Below, in pieces: positions 14,008 to 23,253 of a stretch of 35,349 nucleotides of DNA; position 1 is the first letter of the stretch; the number at the start of each line of letters is the position of its first letter. The notes under the pieces are model-generated. The model had not been told where the DNA came from and ran no database searches. It saw only the letters and a program-made list of their open reading frames with translations. This DNA comes from Solidesulfovibrio sp. GTDB taxonomy: Bacteria > Desulfobacterota > Desulfovibrionia > Desulfovibrionales > Desulfovibrionaceae. A program made the translations under genes and the position numbers. Location: the NCBI RefSeq assembly GCF_029978005.1, contig NZ_JARKOZ010000079.1, forward strand, positions 1 to 35,349. The letters are read 5' to 3'.

Positions 14008-16083
14008 ATGTCCACCATGCCATCGCATGCCCCCTTCCGGCGACCCTCACGACCAAGTCGTGCGCCTTTTGCCGGGTTCCTCTTGGCCTGCAAGAAACGC
14101 TCCCGGCCGTGGCCCGTCCTCCTGGCCCTGGTCCTGACGACGGCGCTGGGCCTGGCCGCCCTGCCGGGCGTCTGCCCGGCGGCCGATCCGCCGGCCCCGG
14201 CGGCCGGGGCCGACGCTTCCGGCGAGGTGTTGCCGGCCAGTCTCGAGATCGCCCTTTACAGCCTGCCCCTGGGCGACCCCTCGGGCCGCGTCCTGGCCGT
14301 GCTGACCCTGGTCTCCGCCCCGGGCTGGCACGCCTACGCCGTGGGGCCGGCCGAGTCCGGCCAGTCCGCCCAGGCCACCCTCGCCGCCGGCAGCACGCCG
14401 GCCCTGGCCTTTTTTCCGCCGGGCGTGCCCACGCCGGACGCCCTGGAGCCGGAAAAGACCGTGCTCGTCTACGAGGGCCGCACGCCCGTCTTCGTGCCCC
14501 TGACCGAGGCCATGCTGGCCGCCCCGGCGCTCACCGGCCGGGTCAAGGTGTTCTCCTGCTCGCCCACCAGCTGCTGGCCGTCCAACCTCGAGGTCAACAT
14601 CCCCCTGGCCGGGGCCGGCGATCCGGCCTCCTTGCCCCCGGCCGAGTCCGCGCCGTGGTGGCCGGTCTTTTCCGCCTTGCGCAGCGCCGCCCTGGCCATG
14701 CCGGCGGCTGTGTGCCCCGAGCCGGCCCATCCGCTGCTGCCGCGCCACGAAGCCCGCCAGGCCCCGCCCGAGGCCGCCGGGCCCGAAGCCGCCGCCGACG
14801 CCTTTCCCAGCGACCTGAGGCCCCGATCCTTCACCCCGGCGCTCGAGGTCTCGAACCTGGTCAAGGCCGCCTCCCTGGCCTTCCTGGCCGGGCTCATCCT
14901 CAACTTCATGCCCTGCGTGCTGCCCGTGGTCAGCCTCAAGCTGTCCGGGCTGCTGGCCCTTTGCGGCGAGGAGGGCAAGGCCGAGCGCCGGCGCATCCTG
15001 CGCGAGCACAACTTCTTCTTCGCCCTGGGCATCCTGGTCTATTTCGTGTTCCTGAGCGTGCTGCTCGGGGGGCTCGGCATGGCTTGGGGGGAGATGTTCC
15101 AGTCGCCGCAGCTGGCCATCGTGGTCACGGTCGTGCTGTTCGCCCTGGCGCTGAGCCTTTTCGGCGTGTTCCACCTGCCGGTGGTGGACCTCAAGATCTC
15201 TTCCGGCGGCCGGGGGCACACCCGGCGCGGCGCATTTCTCACCGGCATGCTCACCACGCTTTTGGCCACGCCGTGCAGCGGTCCGTTCCTCGGCGGCGTG
15301 CTGGCCTGGACGCTGCTGCAGCCCCTGCATGTCGTCACCACGGTCTTTTGCGCCCTGGGCCTCGGCATGGCCTCGCCCTACGGCGTGCTGGCCATCTGGC
15401 CGCGTCTGGTGCGGCTGCTGCCTCGGCCGGGAGCCTGGATGCACGGCCTGGAAAAGATCATGGGCTTCATCCTGGCCGCCACCTGCCTGTATTTCCTGGC
15501 CCTGCTGCCGCCCGAGCGCCTGCTGCCGGCCCTGGCCGCGCTGTGGGCCACGGCCGCCGGGGCCTATCTCTTAGGCCACGGCGCGACCCTGTCCCACGGC
15601 CCCCTGCGCCGCATCGGCGTGGGCCTGGCCGCCCTGGCCCTGGCCGGCGGCGGCCTGGCCTTCGCCCTGACCTACGCGCCGCCGGCCGAGACCGGCTGGA
15701 TCGCCTACAGCCCGGAAACGCTGGAGAAGCACCTGGGCAAGGACAACGTGGTCCTCGACTTCACGGCCGACTGGTGCCCGACCTGCAAGCTGCTGGAGCG
15801 CACGGTGCTGACCGGCCCCCGGGTCGGGCAGTGGGCGGGACGGCACAGGGCCGTGTTCATGAAGGTGGACCTCACCCGCCAGACCCCGCCGGCCATGGCC
15901 CTGCTGCGGGCCCTGGGCAGCCAGTCCATTCCCGTGGTGGCCTTCTTTCCGGCCGGGGAAAAGGCCAAATCGCCGCTGGTGCTGCGCGACCTGTTCACGG
16001 CCGGCCAGTTCGAGCAGGCCCTGACCCAGGCCTTCGCCCCGCCGGCCGAGACGGCCGAAGCTCCCGCCCCGGTCCTGCCTTAA
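14008..16083 (+). CDS. dsbD: DsbD family thiol:disulfide interchange protein
   Basis: A 691-residue protein. It begins with a long n-region and a hydrophobic signal segment (PWPVLLALVLTTALGLAAL). A periplasmic N-terminal domain holds the cysteine pair FSCSPTSCWPSN. The eight-span membrane domain starts near residue 290 with FMPCVLPVVSLK and carries its second redox cysteine in ATPCSGPFLGG. The thioredoxin-like C-terminal domain has WCPTCK. All three cysteine pairs of the electron relay are intact, so it should pass electrons from cytoplasmic thioredoxin to periplasmic thiol proteins, for example in cytochrome c maturation. The start is uncertain: ATG 14008 and ATG 14017 are both near, with weak ribosome-binding sites. 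The stop codon overlaps the stop of the opposing GNAT gene. Confidence 0.93.
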   Translation: MSTMPSHAPFRRPSRPSRAPFAGFLLACKKRSRPWPVLLALVLTTALGLAALPGVCPAADPPAPAAGADASGEVLPASLEIALYSLPLGDPSGRVLAVLTLVSAPGWHAYAVGPAESGQSAQATLAAGSTPALAFFPPGVPTPDALEPEKTVLVYEGRTPVFVPLTEAMLAAPALTGRVKVFSCSPTSCWPSNLEVNIPLAGAGDPASLPPAESAPWWPVFSALRSAALAMPAAVCPEPAHPLLPRHEARQAPPEAAGPEAAADAFPSDLRPRSFTPALEVSNLVKAASLAFLAGLILNFMPCVLPVVSLKLSGLLALCGEEGKAERRRILREHNFFFALGILVYFVFLSVLLGGLGMAWGEMFQSPQLAIVVTVVLFALALSLFGVFHLPVVDLKISSGGRGHTRRGAFLTGMLTTLLATPCSGPFLGGVLAWTLLQPLHVVTTVFCALGLGMASPYGVLAIWPRLVRLLPRPGAWMHGLEKIMGFILAATCLYFLALLPPERLLPALAALWATAAGAYLLGHGATLSHGPLRRIGVGLAALALAGGGLAFALTYAPPAETGWIAYSPETLEKHLGKDNVVLDFTADWCPTCKLLERTVLTGPRVGQWAGRHRAVFMKVDLTRQTPPAMALLRALGSQSIPVVAFFPAGEKAKSPLVLRDLFTAGQFEQALTQAFAPPAETAEAPAPVLP

Positions 16084-16505
16084 AGCCTTTTTTTGAATCC
16101 CCGGGATTCGAAGTAGCCCAGGGCCGTGTAGAAGGCCCGGGCCTCGTCGCGGTCCGGGCCGGACACGAGCATCAGGTACAAGCAGTCCCGCGCCCTGGCC
16201 CGGGTCTCCAGGGCGGCGAAAAGACTCCGACCCACGCCGTGCCTGCGAAAGGGCGAGGCCACCACCACGTTTTCCACCACCATGAACGGTCGGCAGTCGC
16301 CGACCACGTCCAGACAGACGATGCCCAGGGCCGCGCCGGCCAGCACGCCGTCCAGGCGCGCGCCGAGGAGATGGTAGTCGGCATGCCCGGCCATGACGCG
16401 GTGCACGGCCCCAAGCCGTTTCATGTCCGTGTCCAGGCCCGAAAGGGAGCGCATGAGCGCGGCCAGGGCCGGCAGATCTTCGGTGGTGATGTCGGCCACG
16501 TCCAT
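16080..16505 (-). CDS. GNAT family N-acetyltransferase
   Basis: A 141-residue single-domain GNAT. Strand beta4 MVVENVVVASPFRRHGVGRSLF holds the acetyl-CoA pyrophosphate loop (R/Q-x-x-G-x-G/A, here RRHGVG). LYLMLVSG and EARAFYTALGYFESRGFKKRL complete the fold, the latter being the usual C-terminal GNAT signature. Substrate unknown. GGAGG lies 8 bases before the ATG. Its TAA overlaps the dsbD TAA on the other strand within the shared TTAA, so the two genes converge with no spacer. Confidence 0.9.
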   Translation of the reverse strand: MDVADITTEDLPALAALMRSLSGLDTDMKRLGAVHRVMAGHADYHLLGARLDGVLAGAALGIVCLDVVGDCRPFMVVENVVVASPFRRHGVGRSLFAALETRARARDCLYLMLVSGPDRDEARAFYTALGYFESRGFKKRL

Positions 16506-16599
16506 GGCGCGCCTCCGGGAGGTCCGTCCAGGAACGCGGGACGCGCCCCGGGGCAGGAGGAATCGGCCGGTCGCCGTATGGAAGGCGTAACCGCCCGGG

Positions 16600-17703
16600 C
16601 TACTGCTGCGTCTGTACGGCAGGCGGCTGGGGCGCGCCGGCCAGGACCGGGGTTTTATGGGAAGCCTTCTGGGCGGCGATGATCTTGAAGCCCTTGTCCA
16701 GGAGCTTGGTCGTCTCCCGCGCCCGCACCCCGGGGCTGCGCGAGCCCAGGACCACGGCGATGAGCCGGGTGTCGCCGCGCTTGGCCGTGGCCACGATGTT
16801 GTAGCCCGAGGCGCACACGAACCCGGTCTTGAGCCCGTCCACGCCCTCGTAGGTGCCGAGCAGGGAGTTGGCGTTATGCCGTTGACGGTTGTTGTGGGTG
16901 AAGTACTGCATGGAGTGGATGGTCAGGGCCTTGGGGAACTGCTCGAGGTAGGCGGCGGCCAGGCGCAGCATGTCGCGGGCCGTGGTCAGCTGGCCGTCGG
17001 CGGGCAGGCCGTTGGGGTTCATGAAGGCCGAGTTGCTCATGCCCAGGCGCTTGGCCGTGTCGTTCATGAGGGAGACGAAGGCGTCCACGTTGCCGCTTTC
17101 CAGATAGTCGGCCATGGCCATGCAGGCGTCGTTGGCCGAGGCCACGGCGATGCCCTTGATGAGTTCGGTGACCTTGACGGCCTCGCCCCGGCGCAGGCGC
17201 ATGTTGGAGCCGCCCTGGGTGGCGGCCCGCTCGGAAACGTCCACCACGTCCCAGGGCCGCAGCCGCCCTTGGCGGATGGCGTCGAAAACGATGTAGAGGG
17301 TGAGGATCTTGGTCAGGGAGGCCGGCGGGATCTGGACGTCGGGATTCTGCTCGTAAAGCAGCTCGCCCGTGGTCATGTTCCAGAGCATGGCCGACTTGAC
17401 GGTCAAGGTGGGCACGGCGCAGACGCCGATGTCGCCCTCCTCGTTTTCCTCGACCGCGGGCGCGGCGGCCTTCTTCGCCTTGCGGCCCTTCTTGGGCGCG
17501 GCCGGGGCTTCGGCGGCATGCTTGACCGGGGCCTTGGCCTTGCCGGACTTTGCGGACTTGGAGGCGGACTTGGCCTTGCCGGACTCCTTGGCCGCGTGCT
17601 CGGTCTTCTTGGCCAGGGCAGCGCCGTCGCCGACCATCGGCGCGATCACCAGGGCGAACACGGCCAGCACGGCCGCGAACAGGGCATGGGAAGTCTTTTG
17701 CAT
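16600..17703 (-). CDS. D-alanyl-D-alanine carboxypeptidase (peptidase S11, DacA/PBP5-like)
   Basis: A 367-residue protein. A signal peptide (MQKTSHALFAAVLAVFALVI...ALA) is followed by a Lys/Ala-rich linker (residues ~31-83). The S11 catalytic domain has SLTK (Ser129 nucleophile, Lys132), SAN (189-191) and KTG (292-294), all intact. It should trim the terminal D-Ala of peptidoglycan pentapeptides in the periplasm. The PBP5 C-terminal beta domain and amphipathic membrane anchor are missing: only ~70 residues follow KTG, ending in a Pro/Gln tail. The ATG at 17703 is supported by AGAGGAA about 9 bases upstream; the longer frame adds a segment that hides the signal peptide. Confidence 0.93.
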   Translation of the reverse strand: MQKTSHALFAAVLAVFALVIAPMVGDGAALAKKTEHAAKESGKAKSASKSAKSGKAKAPVKHAAEAPAAPKKGRKAKKAAAPAVEENEEGDIGVCAVPTLTVKSAMLWNMTTGELLYEQNPDVQIPPASLTKILTLYIVFDAIRQGRLRPWDVVDVSERAATQGGSNMRLRRGEAVKVTELIKGIAVASANDACMAMADYLESGNVDAFVSLMNDTAKRLGMSNSAFMNPNGLPADGQLTTARDMLRLAAAYLEQFPKALTIHSMQYFTHNNRQRHNANSLLGTYEGVDGLKTGFVCASGYNIVATAKRGDTRLIAVVLGSRSPGVRARETTKLLDKGFKIIAAQKASHKTPVLAGAPQPPAVQTQQ

Positions 17704-17848
17704 GCGGCAGGGTTCCTCTTGCAAGGCGAAAACGTCCGGCCGGCCCGGCACGCCCGCCCGGGGCGCAAAAGCGGCAGCCATGACGCCTGCGCTTGTACAA
17801 AGGCCGTCCGGGAATGTCAAAAGCCCCGGCGGCAAGGAATTGCGGGCG

Positions 17849-17877
17849 TTGCGCCCCGGGCGCGCTTGCCGTAGGAT
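17849..17877 (+). promoter_or_regulatory. Candidate promoter for the small lipoprotein at 17937
   Basis: TTGCGC (17849-17854), 17 bases, TAGGAT (17872-17877), 60 bases before the ATG. The -10 matches four of six consensus bases; the -35 three. Confidence 0.35.
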
Positions 17878-17936
17878 GGCGCGCTGGCGGGGAGACGGCC
17901 TGCGCCGCGATCCGCAGCACGCCCTGGAGCCGGACC

Positions 17937-18095
17937 ATGCGTCGTATCCTGTTTCTTGTTTTTCTTATCGCCATACCTGTCCTTGGTGGCTGTGGGACGC
18001 CGCGCCAGGACTCCAACGTGGAGGTCCGCACCACCGGCGACGCCCAGGTCTACGGCGTGTATTCCAGGCATTTCACGGCCCCGGGCCGGCCCTAG
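17937..18095 (+). CDS. Very small lipoprotein
   Basis: Only 52 residues. MRRILFLVFLIAIPVLGGC is a clear lipoprotein signal with lipobox LGGC (Cys19). The mature peptide is about 34 residues (GTPRQDSNVEVRTTGDAQVYGVYSRHF...). GGAG lies 7 bases before the ATG. No family recognised; tiny lipoproteins like this sit in the inner or outer membrane and are often overlooked. It lies between the divergent carboxypeptidase gene and the histidine kinase control region. Confidence 0.75.
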   Translation: MRRILFLVFLIAIPVLGGCGTPRQDSNVEVRTTGDAQVYGVYSRHFTAPGRP

Positions 18096-18158
18096 TGTCG
18101 CGTTCGCGAAGTTCGCGCAGGCGAATTTCTCGGATAACATATCCTAATAATTACATTT

Positions 18159-18185
18159 CGTTAAAAATACGCCGTATTTTTAACG
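18159..18185 (+). promoter_or_regulatory. AT-rich 12-bp-arm palindrome, copy 2 (candidate operator)
   Basis: CGTTAAAAATAC (18159-18170), spacer GCC, GTATTTTTAACG (18174-18185). It ends 22 bases before the histidine kinase ATG and is followed, at the same distance as in copy 1 (10097-10124), by CGCAGCAC. TATTTT in the right arm is placed to act as a -10, with TTACAT (18151-18156) as a possible -35, so a bound protein would block RNA polymerase. Confidence 0.65.
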
Positions 18186-18207
18186 CACGCAGCACTAGCG
18201 ACAACAC

Positions 18208-19728
18208 ATGACCGACAATCGCGATTTTCCCGACATCCAGGAACGCCTGCTCAAGCTCGAGGAGGCGTTCGCGGACCAGAACGCCTACCAGTTCAAGAAG
18301 ACCATGGCCGAGCTGCGCCGCGCCGCCAAGATGCGCGCAAACGCCGCCGCCCTGTCCCGGGAGGAGCTCCTCGACTGCCGCAAGGAGTCCGAGCGCACCC
18401 GCAAGCAGTGCGTGGACCTGCAGGCCAAGCTCAAGACCGTGGTGGACCGGTTCGAGGGGAGCCTCACGGCCTTCGAGAAGTTCCGCAAGGCCATCCGCGT
18501 GGTGGAAATGATGCGCGCCCACGAGGACCTGCCCACGATCCTCGACCGCATCCAGGATCTCTTCGGGCTGCGGGCCGTGAGCCTGCTGCTCGACGCCGCC
18601 GAATTCGGCCCCTTCGACCCGCCCGGAGCCAGGCTCGTGCCCCTTGCCGCCATGCGCGAGGCCCTGGCCGGGCTTTCGCCCGAAGCCGCCAGGGGCCGGC
18701 CCTGCATGTGCCCCGTCAGCGCCGTGCCCGACCCGGCGTTTTTTTTCGGCCCGGATTTCGTGGCCGGCCGCAAGGTGCTGCTGCTCGGCTCGTGCTTCAT
18801 CTCGCCGCTGCGCGACAAGTTCGGCGCCCAGCGCCTCATCGGCGTGCTGAGCTTCTTCGATCCCAACCCCGACCGCTACACGAGCGAGAAGGGCTCGGAA
18901 TTCGCTTCCCATTTCGCCGACATCCTGGGCTACACCATCGTGGACATCACGGACCGCAAAAAGGCCGAGAGGCTTCGCGAGGACGTGGAGCGCATGACCC
19001 GCCACGACCTCAAGTCGCCGCTGACGGCCGTGCTCACCCTGCCCCAACTCCTGCGCCGCGACGGCAACCTGACCGAGCGCCAGACCGACATGCTCGGGCT
19101 CATGCAGCACGCCGGCTACCGCATGCTCAACATGATCAACCAGTCCCTGGACCTCTACCGCATGGAGCGCGGCGTCTACGAGCTCACCCCCGACAAGGTG
19201 GACATGCTCTCCATCGTGGACAACATCGCCGGCGAACTGCACGGCATGCTGGAGGCCAGCCGGCTGACCCTGGACGTGCTGGTGCGGGGGGCTCCCCGGG
19301 CCCCGGGCGACGCGTTCGTGGTGCGCGGCGAGGAGATGCTCCTGTACACCATGCTCTCCAACCTGGTGAAAAACGCCCTGGAAGCCTCGCCCGAGGGCGC
19401 GCGGGTGACCGTGTCCATGGCCGAGGGCGAAACGACCCTCGACGTGGCCATCGCCAACGCCGGCGCGGTCCCGGCCCGCATCCGCGACTGCTTCTTCGAG
19501 AAATACGCCACCGCCGGCAAGAAGGACGGCACCGGCCTTGGCACCTACGGCGCGCGGCTGATCGCCGAAACCCACGGCGCGCGGATCGCCATGGCCACTT
19601 CCGAGGCGGCCGGCACCACGGTGACGGTGTCCTTCCCCCGGCCCCGCCCGGCGCAGCGGCAAGCCGCCCCGGACGGGCAAGCCGACGCCTCCTTCAGCCT
19701 TCCCGGCACGGCCGCCGGCCGGGCATAG
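18208..19728 (+). CDS. Soluble sensor histidine kinase
   Basis: A 506-residue protein without membrane segments. Residues ~10-95 are a long coiled coil. Residues ~95-245 are a GAF/DUF484-like sensor domain (HEDLPTILDRIQDLFGLRAVSLLL ... RLIGVLSFFDPNPDRYTSEKGSEFASHFADILGY) with several cysteines (C166, C168, C196). A linker (IVDITDRKKAERL) leads to HisKA with phospho-acceptor His266 (MTRHDLKSPL), then HATPase with N-box NLVKNALEAS and G2 GTGLGTYGARLI. The G1 box reads IANAG, with Asn for the usual Asp, as in a subset of kinases. The C-terminal 45 residues are disordered. No response regulator is adjacent. A palindrome precedes the gene; the ribosome-binding site is poor. Confidence 0.9.
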   Translation: MTDNRDFPDIQERLLKLEEAFADQNAYQFKKTMAELRRAAKMRANAAALSREELLDCRKESERTRKQCVDLQAKLKTVVDRFEGSLTAFEKFRKAIRVVEMMRAHEDLPTILDRIQDLFGLRAVSLLLDAAEFGPFDPPGARLVPLAAMREALAGLSPEAARGRPCMCPVSAVPDPAFFFGPDFVAGRKVLLLGSCFISPLRDKFGAQRLIGVLSFFDPNPDRYTSEKGSEFASHFADILGYTIVDITDRKKAERLREDVERMTRHDLKSPLTAVLTLPQLLRRDGNLTERQTDMLGLMQHAGYRMLNMINQSLDLYRMERGVYELTPDKVDMLSIVDNIAGELHGMLEASRLTLDVLVRGAPRAPGDAFVVRGEEMLLYTMLSNLVKNALEASPEGARVTVSMAEGETTLDVAIANAGAVPARIRDCFFEKYATAGKKDGTGLGTYGARLIAETHGARIAMATSEAAGTTVTVSFPRPRPAQRQAAPDGQADASFSLPGTAAGRA

Positions 19729-19749
19729 TTTTCCCCACACCGTTTCCCC

Positions 19750-19778
19750 TTGACCCCGCCTGTCGGGCACTGTAGCTT
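19750..19778 (+). promoter_or_regulatory. Candidate promoter for the padR operon
   Basis: TTGACC (19750-19755), 17-base spacer, TAGCTT (19773-19778) with a TG just before it. The expected transcript start falls near 19785, at the left edge of the PadR-gene palindrome, so a regulator bound there would block initiation. Confidence 0.45.
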
Positions 19779-19785
19779 GGCGCAA

Positions 19786-19806
19786 TTAGTAGACGAGGTC
19801 TAATAA
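19786..19806 (+). promoter_or_regulatory. Near-palindrome over the padR ribosome-binding site and start codon
   Basis: TTAGTAGAC (19786-19794), GAG, GTCTAATAA (19798-19806), one mismatch per arm. It contains the GAGG ribosome-binding site and the A of the ATG. PadR proteins commonly bind palindromes at their own promoters, so autoregulation is likely. Confidence 0.5.
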
Positions 19807-20192
19807 TGGAATTCCTCGACTGCCCCTGCACCGGCAAGTCCCTGACCCGCCTCGTGCGGCCGGCCGTGCTCACGCTTCTGGCCGGCGAAACCCTCCACGG
19901 CTACGAAGTGCTGCGCCGCCTCGCCGCCATGCGCATCTGCGGCGGGCGCCGGCCCGACGCCGCCGGCGTCTACCGGACGCTTCGCGACATGGAGTTCGAG
20001 GGCCTGCTCGCCGGGGCCTGGGACCTGCCCGAGCAAGGGCCGGCCAAGCGCCGCTTTTCCGTCACCCCGCGCGGGCTGGCCTGCCTGGCCCGCTGGAACG
20101 CGACCCTGGCCGAGTACCAGGCCGCCATCGGCCAGCTGCTGGAGGCGGCCGGCGCGGCCCTTGGCCCGGCGACGGACCGGGAGGCGTCATGA
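19806..20192 (+). CDS. PadR-like winged-helix transcriptional regulator
   Basis: A 128-residue protein. The winged-helix domain covers residues ~15-90: VLTLLAGETLHGYEVLRRL (typical PadR helix 1-2 with the HGYE motif), DAAGVYRTLRDMEFEGLL (recognition helix, VYRTL), and a wing with KRRFSVTPRGLACL. A short C-terminal helix (LAEYQAAIGQLLEAAG) would dimerise. An N-terminal CPC (C6-P-C8) is unusual and could bind metal or sense thiols. The stop overlaps the next start (ATGA), so it leads the transcript encoding the channel-GTPase fusion, which it probably controls. The inducer is unknown. Confidence 0.85.
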   Translation: MEFLDCPCTGKSLTRLVRPAVLTLLAGETLHGYEVLRRLAAMRICGGRRPDAAGVYRTLRDMEFEGLLAGAWDLPEQGPAKRRFSVTPRGLACLARWNATLAEYQAAIGQLLEAAGAALGPATDREAS

Positions 20193-22129
20193 CCTCCGGC
20201 CGCGAGGCCTTCGGGGCCTGCCTGGCCGAGGCCGCCGGCACCTTCCTCATGGTCTTTTTCGGCACCGGCACGGTGTTCGTGGCCGTGACCACCGGGGCCC
20301 TGCAAGGCCTGTGGCAGGTGGCCGTGGTCTGGGCCGTGATCATCGCCGTGGCCATACAGGCCATCGGGGCGATCAGCGGCGCGCACCTGAATCCCGCCGT
20401 GACCCTGGCCTTCTGGGCCTGGCGCGGCTTTCCCCGCGCCCGGGTGCCGGCCTACCTGGCCGCCCAGCTCATCGGGGCCTTCGCCGCCGCGGCCGTGCTC
20501 TTCGGGCTCTACGCCGGCGTTCTGGCCGGCTACGAAGCCCGGGAGGGCATCGTGCGCGGCCAGCCCGGCAGCGAACGCAGCGCCATGGTCTTCGGCGAGT
20601 ACTTCCCCAACCCGGGTCTTTTCCCCGACCCCGCCGCCGGCCGCCTGGCCGTGGCCGAGGCGCAGGCCATGGCCGCCGAGGGCCTGGGCACGGCCGTGCT
20701 GGCCTTTTGCATCTTCGCCCTGACCGACCGGCGCAACCGCGCCCGGCCCAGGGGGGCGCTCCTGCCGGCGGCCATAGGCCTCACCGTGGCCGGGCTCATC
20801 GCGGTCATCGCCCCCCTGACCCAGGCCGGGTTCAACCCCGCCCGCGATTTCGGGCCGCGCCTTTTCGCCTGGCTGGCCGGCTGGGGCGCGGTGGCCGTTC
20901 CCGGACCCAGGGGCGGCTTTTTCACGGTCTACATCCTGTCTCCGATCATCGGCGGCCTCGTCGGCGCAGGCCTGTACGAACGGGGGCTGCGCCGCTTCCT
21001 GCCCCCCTTCGCCGACCACAAACCCGAAAGGAGCCCCGCCATGTCCCGCAAACGATTCATCCTCCTCGGCGGCTTCCTGGCCGCCGGCAAGACCACGGCC
21101 ATGGCCGCCCTGGCCGGGCGACTCGCCGCCCGGGGCCTGCGGCCGGCCGTCATCGCCAACGACCAGAGCGAGGGGCTGGTGGACACCGCCCGCCTTTCCC
21201 ACTTGAACCTGCCCATGGCCGAGATCACGGGCGGCTGCTTCTGCTGCCGCTTCGACGCCCTGGCCGAGGCGGCAGACGGCCTCGCCGGCGTGGCCGACGT
21301 CATCCTGGCCGAGCCGGTGGGCTCCTGCACGGACGTGCGGGCCACCGTGGCCTATCCCCTGCGCCGGCTGTACGACGCAAGCTACGCCACGGCCCCGCTC
21401 TCGGTCCTGGTCGACCCCGAAACCTGCGCCGCCATGCTCGGCCTCGACGGGGCCGCCCCGGCCCTGTCCCCGGACGTGGCCTACATCTACCGCAAGCAGT
21501 TGGAGGAAGCCGACATTCTGGTGGTCAACAAGATCGACCGTATCTCCCGGGAGGCGCGCGACGCCCTGGTCGCCGCCCTGTCCGCGCGCCACCCCGCCGC
21601 CAGGGTGCTCGCGGTCTCGTGCCTGACCGGCGAGGGCCTGGACGCCTGGCTCGACGGGCTGCTCCAGGGAACGCCGGACTCCCGCGCCGCCATGGACGTG
21701 GACTACGACCGTTACGCCGAGGGCGAGGCCCTGCTCGGCTGGTACAACGCCACGGCCGACCTGGCCCGGGAACCGGAGGACGCGGCCGCGGCCGTGGCCG
21801 CCCTGGCCGCCGGGCTGCGCGACCGGCTGGCGGCGGAAGGCATCCCCGTGGCCCACTTGAAGTGCAGCCTCAACGACGCGGTAGGCAAAGCCGCCGCAGC
21901 GGTGAGCGTCACCGCCGCCGACGGGCCGTTGGAAGCGACCTGCCGCCCGCAGGGCGGCGCGACAGGCCGACGGCTGGTCGTCAACCTGCGCGCCGAGGGC
22001 GACCCCGAGGCCCTGGCCGGCATCGTCGCCGCCGTGGCCGGGGAGGCCCTTCCCGGCCAGGAAGCGCTGGCGGCCCGGGCTTTCCGGCCCGGCCGGCCCA
22101 ATCCGACGCACCGGTTGCAAACGCCCTAG
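20189..22129 (+). CDS. Aquaglyceroporin (MIP) fused in frame to a CobW/P47K-type G3E GTPase
   Basis: One 646-residue reading frame. Residues 1-~275 are a complete MIP channel: EAAGTFLMVFFGTG, first NPA at 68-70 (GAHLNPAVT), second NPA at 216-218 in GFNPARDFGPRLF. The Asp after NPAR is the mark of glycerol facilitators. Residues 285-646 are a G3E GTPase: Walker A GGFLAAGKTT (294-303), the metal-binding CxCC motif GGCFCCR (C350, C352, C353), a switch region ILAEPVGSCTD, and NKID (447-450). The C-terminal part resembles P47K proteins of corrinoid/methyl-transfer clusters. An internal ATG at 21041 with AAAGGAG 7 bases upstream suggests the GTPase is also, or only, made separately. No stop codon separates the two parts. 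The start overlaps padR by 4 bases. Confidence 0.85.
   Translation: MTSGREAFGACLAEAAGTFLMVFFGTGTVFVAVTTGALQGLWQVAVVWAVIIAVAIQAIGAISGAHLNPAVTLAFWAWRGFPRARVPAYLAAQLIGAFAAAAVLFGLYAGVLAGYEAREGIVRGQPGSERSAMVFGEYFPNPGLFPDPAAGRLAVAEAQAMAAEGLGTAVLAFCIFALTDRRNRARPRGALLPAAIGLTVAGLIAVIAPLTQAGFNPARDFGPRLFAWLAGWGAVAVPGPRGGFFTVYILSPIIGGLVGAGLYERGLRRFLPPFADHKPERSPAMSRKRFILLGGFLAAGKTTAMAALAGRLAARGLRPAVIANDQSEGLVDTARLSHLNLPMAEITGGCFCCRFDALAEAADGLAGVADVILAEPVGSCTDVRATVAYPLRRLYDASYATAPLSVLVDPETCAAMLGLDGAAPALSPDVAYIYRKQLEEADILVVNKIDRISREARDALVAALSARHPAARVLAVSCLTGEGLDAWLDGLLQGTPDSRAAMDVDYDRYAEGEALLGWYNATADLAREPEDAAAAVAALAAGLRDRLAAEGIPVAHLKCSLNDAVGKAAAAVSVTAADGPLEATCRPQGGATGRRLVVNLRAEGDPEALAGIVAAVAGEALPGQEALAARAFRPGRPNPTHRLQTP
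21027..21043 (+). promoter_or_regulatory. Internal ribosome-binding site and start inside the channel-GTPase frame
   Basis: AAAGGAG (21027-21033), 7 bases, ATG (21041-21043) opening MSRKRFILLGGF, exactly where stand-alone CobW-type GTPases begin. This would give a 362-residue GTPase ending at 22129. It suggests an ancestral gene boundary from which the upstream stop codon was lost. Confidence 0.65.
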
Positions 22130-22215
22130 GCGGCGCGCCGGCAGTCCCCCACGCGGGTCCGCCGCCGGGCCGGCGGCGGGCGCGCCTCTCTCCCGTCATC
22201 ATGCAAGGAGCGATC

Positions 22216-23253
22216 ATGTTCGAAATGGACGTCCCGACCAGGCGCATCCTGGAGGCCGCCCTGGCCGGCCTGCCTCCCACCGAGAAACAGTGCGCCGCGC
22301 TCCTGGCCCTGCCCGAAGCGTCCCTGGAAGCCGCGGCCGTGCGGGCCGTGGCCGACGCCGCGACCAGGCGACGCCTGGGCGACGCGGGCATCCTGCTCGG
22401 CCAGATCGGCCTGGAAATCGACGCCTGCCCGGGCAAGTGCGCCTTTTGCAGCTTCGGGGAAGGGCACACGGCCTTTGCGCCCTCCAGAATGACGGAGGAA
22501 GAAATCCTGCGAAACGCGGCGGCCTTCACGGAGGGAGGGGAACTCTACGCCCTTTTCCTCATGACCATGCACGTGTTCGATTTCGGCCGGCTGCTGCGCG
22601 TGGTGGAGCTTTTGCGGGGGCGCGTCCCGGCCGCAACGCAGCTCGTCGTCAACATCGGCGATTTCGACCGTTCCCAGGCCATGGAGCTGCGGGCCGCCGG
22701 CGTGGATGGAGCCTACCACGTCAACCGGTTGCGGGAAGGCATCGACACGGCCCTCGACCCGGCCGGACGCAAGGCGACCATAGGGGCTATCCGGGAAAGC
22801 GGCCTGGACTGGTATTATTGCTGCGAGCCCGTGGGTCCGGAACACGATCCCGAGGAACTGGCGGAACAGCTGTACCTTGGCGTCGAACTCGGCTGTTTCC
22901 AGCACGCGGCCATGCGCCGGGTGTTCCTGCCGGGCTCGCCCCTGGCCTCGCGGGGCCAGATTTCCGAGCGCCGCCTGGCCCAGGTCGTGGCCGTGGCGGC
23001 CCTGGCCTGCCTGGGCTGTCCCGAGACCCGCAGCATCGCCGTGCACGAGCCGAACCCGCTGGGCCTGACCGCCGGGGCCAACACCGTCTACGCCGAGGCT
23101 GGAGCCAATCCCCGGGACACGGAAGAAGATACCGCCGGGCATCGCGGACGCGACATCGCCGCATGCAAAACGATGCTCTGGGAATGCGGATTCACGCAAC
23201 TGCTCGTTTCCCCGGATGCCCGGACGCCGTTGCGGGAAGCCTGCCAAGCGTGA
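22216..23253 (+). CDS. BioB/HydE-like radical SAM protein
   Basis: A 345-residue protein. The radical SAM cluster motif is C71-PGK-C75-AF-C78, preceded by QIGLEIDA and followed by SFGEGHTAF. It has a TIM-barrel pattern with a glycine/acid-rich segment (NIGDFDRSQAMELRAAGVDGAYHVNRL, as in BioB/HydE proteins), DWYYCCEPVGPEHDPEELAEQ, and a C-terminal ANTVYAEAGANPRDTEED region like the BATS domain of BioB/HydE. Extra cysteines (C-C at ~205, LACLGCPETR) might bind a second cofactor. The substrate is unknown; biotin synthase is unlikely because no bio genes are nearby and the sequence is divergent. AAGGAG is 5 bases before the ATG at 22216. It lies 86 bases after the GTPase, probably in the same transcript. 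Confidence 0.82.
   Translation: MFEMDVPTRRILEAALAGLPPTEKQCAALLALPEASLEAAAVRAVADAATRRRLGDAGILLGQIGLEIDACPGKCAFCSFGEGHTAFAPSRMTEEEILRNAAAFTEGGELYALFLMTMHVFDFGRLLRVVELLRGRVPAATQLVVNIGDFDRSQAMELRAAGVDGAYHVNRLREGIDTALDPAGRKATIGAIRESGLDWYYCCEPVGPEHDPEELAEQLYLGVELGCFQHAAMRRVFLPGSPLASRGQISERRLAQVVAVAALACLGCPETRSIAVHEPNPLGLTAGANTVYAEAGANPRDTEEDTAGHRGRDIAACKTMLWECGFTQLLVSPDARTPLREACQA

Follow-up and report, generated by a model that had tools for sequence, protein, structure and literature searches.

A single uninterrupted reading frame joins an aquaglyceroporin channel to a G3E-type GTPase in the window (the whole 35,349-nucleotide stretch of Solidesulfovibrio sp. DNA that was analysed), and such a frame occurs in eight genomes: that of the window, one other of the same genus (L252 in G153), three more of the phylum (L244 in G767, L245 in G726 and L247 in G656) and three of the class to which a Phycisphaerales record belongs (L032 in G154, L248 in G1107 and L249 in G950). 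The architecture and recurrence of the fusion are well supported. As read from the sequence, the gene most likely makes both a channel-tethered GTPase and a free GTPase. We lean towards the view that the locus is a horizontally moved, PadR-regulated operon in which a channel and a metal GTPase were fused, which yields these two products and which handles a metal or metalloid. The features of the locus are:

19790–19802, no strand assigned, candidate operator, palindrome TAGACGAGGTCTA, just upstream of padR
19806–20192, forward strand, PadR-type regulator, 128 aa, N-terminal CPCTG (Pfam PadR, E = 9.4 × 10−10, 38.8 bits against a cut-off of 27)
20189–22129, forward strand, fused frame (channel and GTPase), 646 aa, computed mass 66.8 kDa, ATG start
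20189–20998, forward strand, channel part (aquaglyceroporin), residues 1–270
20999–21040, forward strand, linker, residues 271–284 (pLDDT below 50 at residues 275–285)
21027–21033, forward strand, internal Shine–Dalgarno-like AAAGGAG, forming AAAGGAG-N7-ATG at the junction
21041–22129, forward strand, G3E/SIMIBI GTPase with internal ATG start, 362 aa, computed mass 37.4 kDa
22216–23253, forward strand, radical SAM gene, an optional accessory (Pfam Radical_SAM at 27.8 bits, under the cut-off of 29.5)

Translation of the fused frame runs through its 646 codons without an internal stop, and all motifs that the first-pass annotation had named in it are present. Pfam MIP covers residues 7–263 (E = 7 × 10−48, 163.8 bits against a cut-off of 25), TIGR00861 matches the channel part at 183.9 bits (cut-off 171.25), and the NPA boxes read NPAV and NPARD, the second being followed by Arg and Asp; by sequence, the channel part is a GlpF-type aquaglyceroporin of the MIP family. 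Pfam cobW covers residues 291–471 (E = 6 × 10−19, 68.7 bits against a cut-off of 20.7), the GTPase motifs are GGFLAAGKTT (Walker A), CFCC (CxCC) and NKID (NKxD), and C66, C68 and C69 of the GTPase are invariant across 35 sequences. These matches identify the second half as a HypB/UreG/CobW-type GTPase, and its resemblance in family and fold suggests a metallochaperone role. Many COG0523 proteins carry a C-terminal CobW_C domain; Pfam gave no CobW_C match on the C-terminal part of this GTPase at E = 0.001, and its structural matches are mostly to the N-terminal GTPase domain. The Pfam scan also found no LMWPc match, and thus no arsenate reductase (LMW-PTP) domain, in the fused frame. In the predicted structure of the fused protein both domains are confidently folded and the linker between them is flexible; the relative placement of the two domains is uncertain (pTM 0.67). 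A second forward-strand frame (20161–23253) is open for 1,030 codons across the whole fusion and then becomes the radical SAM gene. This is probably an effect of the G+C content of about 74%, and it shows why gene callers may stumble at the locus.

The first-pass annotation had read an AAAGGAG–ATG pair at 21027–21043 as a retained internal start. The pair is real, its ATG (21041–21043) is in frame with the channel, and a pair of this kind stands at all eight fused junctions, where a Shine–Dalgarno-like match ends 5–8 bases upstream of an in-frame ATG at the GTPase start. The match is AAGGAG in the window, L032, L244 and L248, TAAGGAG in L245, AGGAG in L247, GGAG in L252 and only AAGG in L249. 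In duplex energy with the anti-Shine–Dalgarno sequence, the junction beats every other in-frame ATG in seven of the eight fused genes; by energy alone, each gene has 7 to 75 positions, out of approximately 635 codons, at which the duplex is at least as strong. Because equally strong positions are common in the genes, the signal at the junction is the Shine–Dalgarno match and the ATG combined. Unfused relatives use the same GTPase start, with ten split starts at −5.6 to −11.4 compared with −5.8 to −8.8 for the fused ones. A conserved internal start at the fusion junction is therefore well supported by sequence comparison.

Relatives in which the channel and GTPase genes are adjacent but unfused exist. 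The channel TAG overlaps the Shine–Dalgarno sequence of the GTPase in L246, the channel stop and GTPase start overlap as ATGA in L286, and the stop ends two bases before the ATG in L285. Given these side-by-side relatives and PadR matches in 18 of the 30 loci examined, the fusion is, on gene content, the fused form of a PadR–channel–GTPase operon that also occurs unfused. On a tree built from the concatenated sequences of 26 loci, the two states are interspersed and require at least four changes, three of them forced by well-supported branches (L285 and L286 were left out; loci in reverse order were scored as split, as were L254 and L260, where another gene intervenes). The main rival to our reading holds that these changes are near-neutral read-through: in an operon whose genes are closely packed and translationally coupled, the channel stop would be lost occasionally, most of the GTPase would still come from its own start, and the fused protein would be a by-product that is tolerated but serves no function itself. 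The repeated changes of state fit this view, as do the persistence of the GTPase start signal in every fused copy and the split relatives that stop at or beside that same start. So does an unconserved linker: comparing the window with G153 gives a Ka/Ks of 0.17 in the channel, 0.43 in the GTPase and 0.54 in the linker (only 20 codons), so that both domains are constrained at the sequence level and the linker is not clearly so. The behaviour of the frame argues the other way. It is kept between the window and G153 (646 codons in both, counted in G153 from a GTG aligned with the window start; an ATG further upstream would give 678 aa) and inside two diverged pairs, L244/L245 and L248/L249, and it survives linkers that differ by nine bases (L244 compared with L245, and L032 compared with the window), which means that the frame is kept while the length changes. 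We regard read-through as possible, though rather doubtful.

A further alternative, which we consider improbable, is that the long fusion is the only product and that the junction carries its Shine–Dalgarno-like sequence and ATG as a relic or by chance. Such a match is found at 8 of 8 junctions but at only 5 of 64 other in-frame ATGs of the same frames (Fisher's exact P = 10−7), and a match of at least five bases at 6 of 8 compared with 1 of 64 (P = 10−6), both P values counting related sequences as independent; the GGAG is also retained in G153 though neighbouring bases have changed. The alternative draws what strength it has from the position of the window junction inside an actively translated frame and from the frequency of comparable signals in the gene, in which 35 of 632 codon positions are as strong as the junction in Shine–Dalgarno-like energy.

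The genome search for MIP–G3E fusions that the first-pass annotation had proposed yielded the eight fused copies and split homologues as well. Searching 14 same-genus genomes (its own included) with the DNA of the window showed that G153 aligns through window positions 18204–22132 at 82%, with its fusion on a 261-kb contig. Full-length protein searches gave uninterrupted matches in 4 of 345 genomes of the phylum of the window (G000, G767, G726 and G656; the match in G716 has one TAG), in 1 of 343 of the phylum to which the Phycisphaerales record L032 belongs (G154, which carries L032; G293 has one TAG) and in 3 of 347 of the class of G154 (G154, G1107 and G950; G913 has one TAA). There were none among 201 genomes of the phylum of an Armatimonadetes record, where G1272 has one TAA, and none among 288 of the phylum of a Verrucomicrobia record. 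From a scan of 84,980 species genomes, 80 of 149 loci were kept, one of which is fused (L032). A search of 149 genomes of the family, with 35 matching at E = 10−10, did not find a second fusion because G153 was absent from that draw. As the searches for relatives used the fused protein as query, in-frame pairs score higher, and the tally of tandem channel-then-GTPase pairs without a gene between (8 fused, 4 split in frame and 9 out of frame) does not give frequencies. L057 and L107 were rejected as further fusions, their long N-terminal GTPase extensions looking, by eye, like G+C-rich overcalls, and apparent stops within some channel matches were discounted because the alignments simply extend beyond the gene end. 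The loss of a stop or frameshift at the junction through faulty assembly or sequencing, the outcome that the first-pass annotation had said would undo its reading, might be suspected from the exactly one in-frame stop at the junction of several relatives (L246, L250, L251 and L262), but is excluded for practical purposes by the independent assemblies, G153 with a fused frame of identical length and six others uninterrupted. Counterparts in distantly related bacteria make the fusion look like a genuine protein architecture, not an artefact of sequencing.

The padR stop overlaps the channel ATG as ATGA (20189–20192). All 18 PadR matches have an N-terminal C-x-C-x-G, and seven of the eight fused loci are among the PadR-positive loci; the contig of the eighth, L247, has just 286 bases upstream. 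The order differs in L256, with the PadR gene downstream of the channel–GTPase pair. The exact TAGACNNNGTCTA site occurs once in the genome, before padR, compared with four times per strand for a backward-read control pattern. Across loci, the 60 bases before the padR gene contain RGAC-N3-GTCY in 6 of 18 cases (500 mononucleotide shuffles, mean 0.046, maximum 2 of 18). This pattern was picked after looking, and the window and L252, as well as L285 and L286, are close pairs; the palindrome is therefore only a lead as an operator. The window palindrome (19790–19802) resembles sites before padR genes of other phyla.

Three observations suggest that the operon moved horizontally. In same-genus genome G149, the flanks (16001–19646 and 23444 onward) lie approximately 0.3 kb apart, leaving an empty site; G153 carries the fusion with no radical SAM gene beside it; and in both the channel and the GTPase tree the nearest neighbours by path outside the genus are L032 and others of its phylum (one near-neighbour row, G486, came from the search of that phylum). 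The radical SAM gene was not found in the other 13 same-genus genomes searched. A copy 51% identical to it lies between channel and GTPase in L254 (PadR–channel–radical SAM–GTPase). Of 29 other genomes with the channel gene, the GTPase gene or both, only 5 have the radical SAM gene, and besides the window it adjoins them in one (G1080); the gene was therefore rejected as a core part. In L260 (6458–7627), a transglutaminase-like gene occupies the corresponding place (PadR–channel–X–GTPase).

The window channel shares its fold with Escherichia coli GlpF and is 41% identical to it over 251 aligned residues. At the positions that we take to be the selectivity filter of GlpF (W48, G191, F200 and R206), it keeps the equivalents of W48 and R206 and has I and A in place of G and F at 191 and 200; the resulting W-I-A-R is found in 19 of 21 channels and presumably resembles plant NIP-I filters. 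This filter and the predicted fold indicate that the channel may pass glycerol or similar neutral solutes. In the scan of 84,980 genomes, 11 of 34 channel-only loci have an ArsC-like LMW-PTP match by the channel (ten adjacent, one approximately 1.2 kb away), and one representative of these neighbours is Pfam LMWPc. Given these relatives of the channel, our best guess from gene neighbourhoods is that the operon handles a metal or metalloid. No arsenic gene was recognised beside the eight fused copies, and arsenic was dropped as a demonstrated substrate because the ArsC-like neighbours are those of channel-only relatives. Among representatives scanned, a DGC-domain family occurs at five channel loci; a CDF efflux gene precedes the nearest stand-alone GTPase (L135/L263), another CDF gene lies near L255, and the fused L247 adjoins an RND pump gene. 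In L259 (1156–5047) and L274 (1772–5504), a related channel adjoins other CobW-type GTPase genes, and L259 also has a DUF2284 predicted metal-binding gene near the channel.

The surroundings of stand-alone GTPases differ. At the 58 loci called GTPase-only (L035 and L093 do have a channel), a GcvH-like gene occurs in 26, a DUF116–polyprenyl synthase gene in 26 and a radical SAM gene of another family in 23, with labels taken from one representative scanned per family. As most stand-alone GTPases are in the GcvH-like cluster, the task of the GTPase may not be the delivery of metal to a channel substrate. L064, L088, L036, L058 and similar loci combine GTPase relatives with GcvH-like, DUF116–polyprenyl synthase fusion, radical SAM and 4Fe–4S genes, and the cluster is found in Planctomycetota, Verrucomicrobiota and Acidobacteriota.

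Aquaglyceroporin–arsenate reductase fusions of actinobacteria were reportedly described by Wu, Song and Beitz in 2010. Such fusions, which passages of two papers also place in actinobacteria (PMC12838822 and PMC9775063), are the closest known system. They share with the window fusion a soluble enzyme domain at the C terminus of an aquaglyceroporin, as a natural channel–enzyme design, and a likely metalloid context; they differ in their partner, a phosphatase-like reductase rather than a G3E GTPase, whereas the window fusion keeps an internal start, has a PadR gene in front and belongs to other phyla. The AqpS-type arsenite channel of ars operons is likewise an aquaglyceroporin with an ArsC-like neighbour, as in the channel-only relatives, but is described in the passages of PMC4531530 as stand-alone, beside arsR and arsC and without a GTPase. 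Known G3E/COG0523 GTPases (HypB, UreG, CobW and YjiA) share Pfam cobW, Walker A, CxCC and NKxD with the window GTPase; its fold is nearest, among the 50 structural matches listed, to HypB, UreG and MeaB, and its sequence is far from solved members (YjiA, E = 5.9 × 10−4). Its lack of a CobW_C match at the threshold above and its tether to a channel set it apart from them. No YjiA or CobW chain is among those 50 matches, which excludes neither. The first-pass annotation had called the fusion an unfamiliar design, and titles and passages of the open-access papers searched yielded no report of a MIP–G3E fusion or of the PadR–channel–GTPase operon; the passages of PMC12838822, PMC9775063, PMC4531530 and PMC12114714 report no such fusion either, and those of the COG0523 survey (PMC2770081) contain none of the words aquaporin, fused and fusion. 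The design is not a one-off, as it recurs and has an unfused operon form.

Our account of the two products, of a function for tethering and of the substrate is inferred. Under the reading that we favour, ribosomes starting at the channel ATG would make the membrane fusion, with the GTPase at the cytoplasmic mouth of the pore, and ribosomes starting at the internal ATG would make the soluble GTPase, the mix setting the number of GTPases per channel tetramer. Through its CxC, the PadR protein would sense a metal or metalloid that reacts with thiols. A small solute without charge, for example a metalloid hydroxide or a compound resembling glycerol, would pass through the channel, and the metal concerned would be bound or delivered by the GTPase. 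A bolder version, which we hold to be unlikely, is a repeatedly evolved channel–metallochaperone fusion with programmed dual translation, in which the nucleotide state or metal loading of the GTPase would gate the glycerol-type channel, or catch its cargo at the mouth of the pore, under a thiol-sensing PadR.

If dual translation is true, one gene would fix the proportion of GTPase tethered to the pore relative to free GTPase. The presumed role of G3E GTPases is to pass metals to partner proteins, and the partner is usually hard to find; a natural tether to a membrane channel would identify both the partner and the site of action. The fused and split versions, with their shared junction, are a ready-made experiment on gene fusion with a second start retained, and the occurrence of the PadR–channel–GTPase operon in several phyla makes its substrate and signal directly testable.
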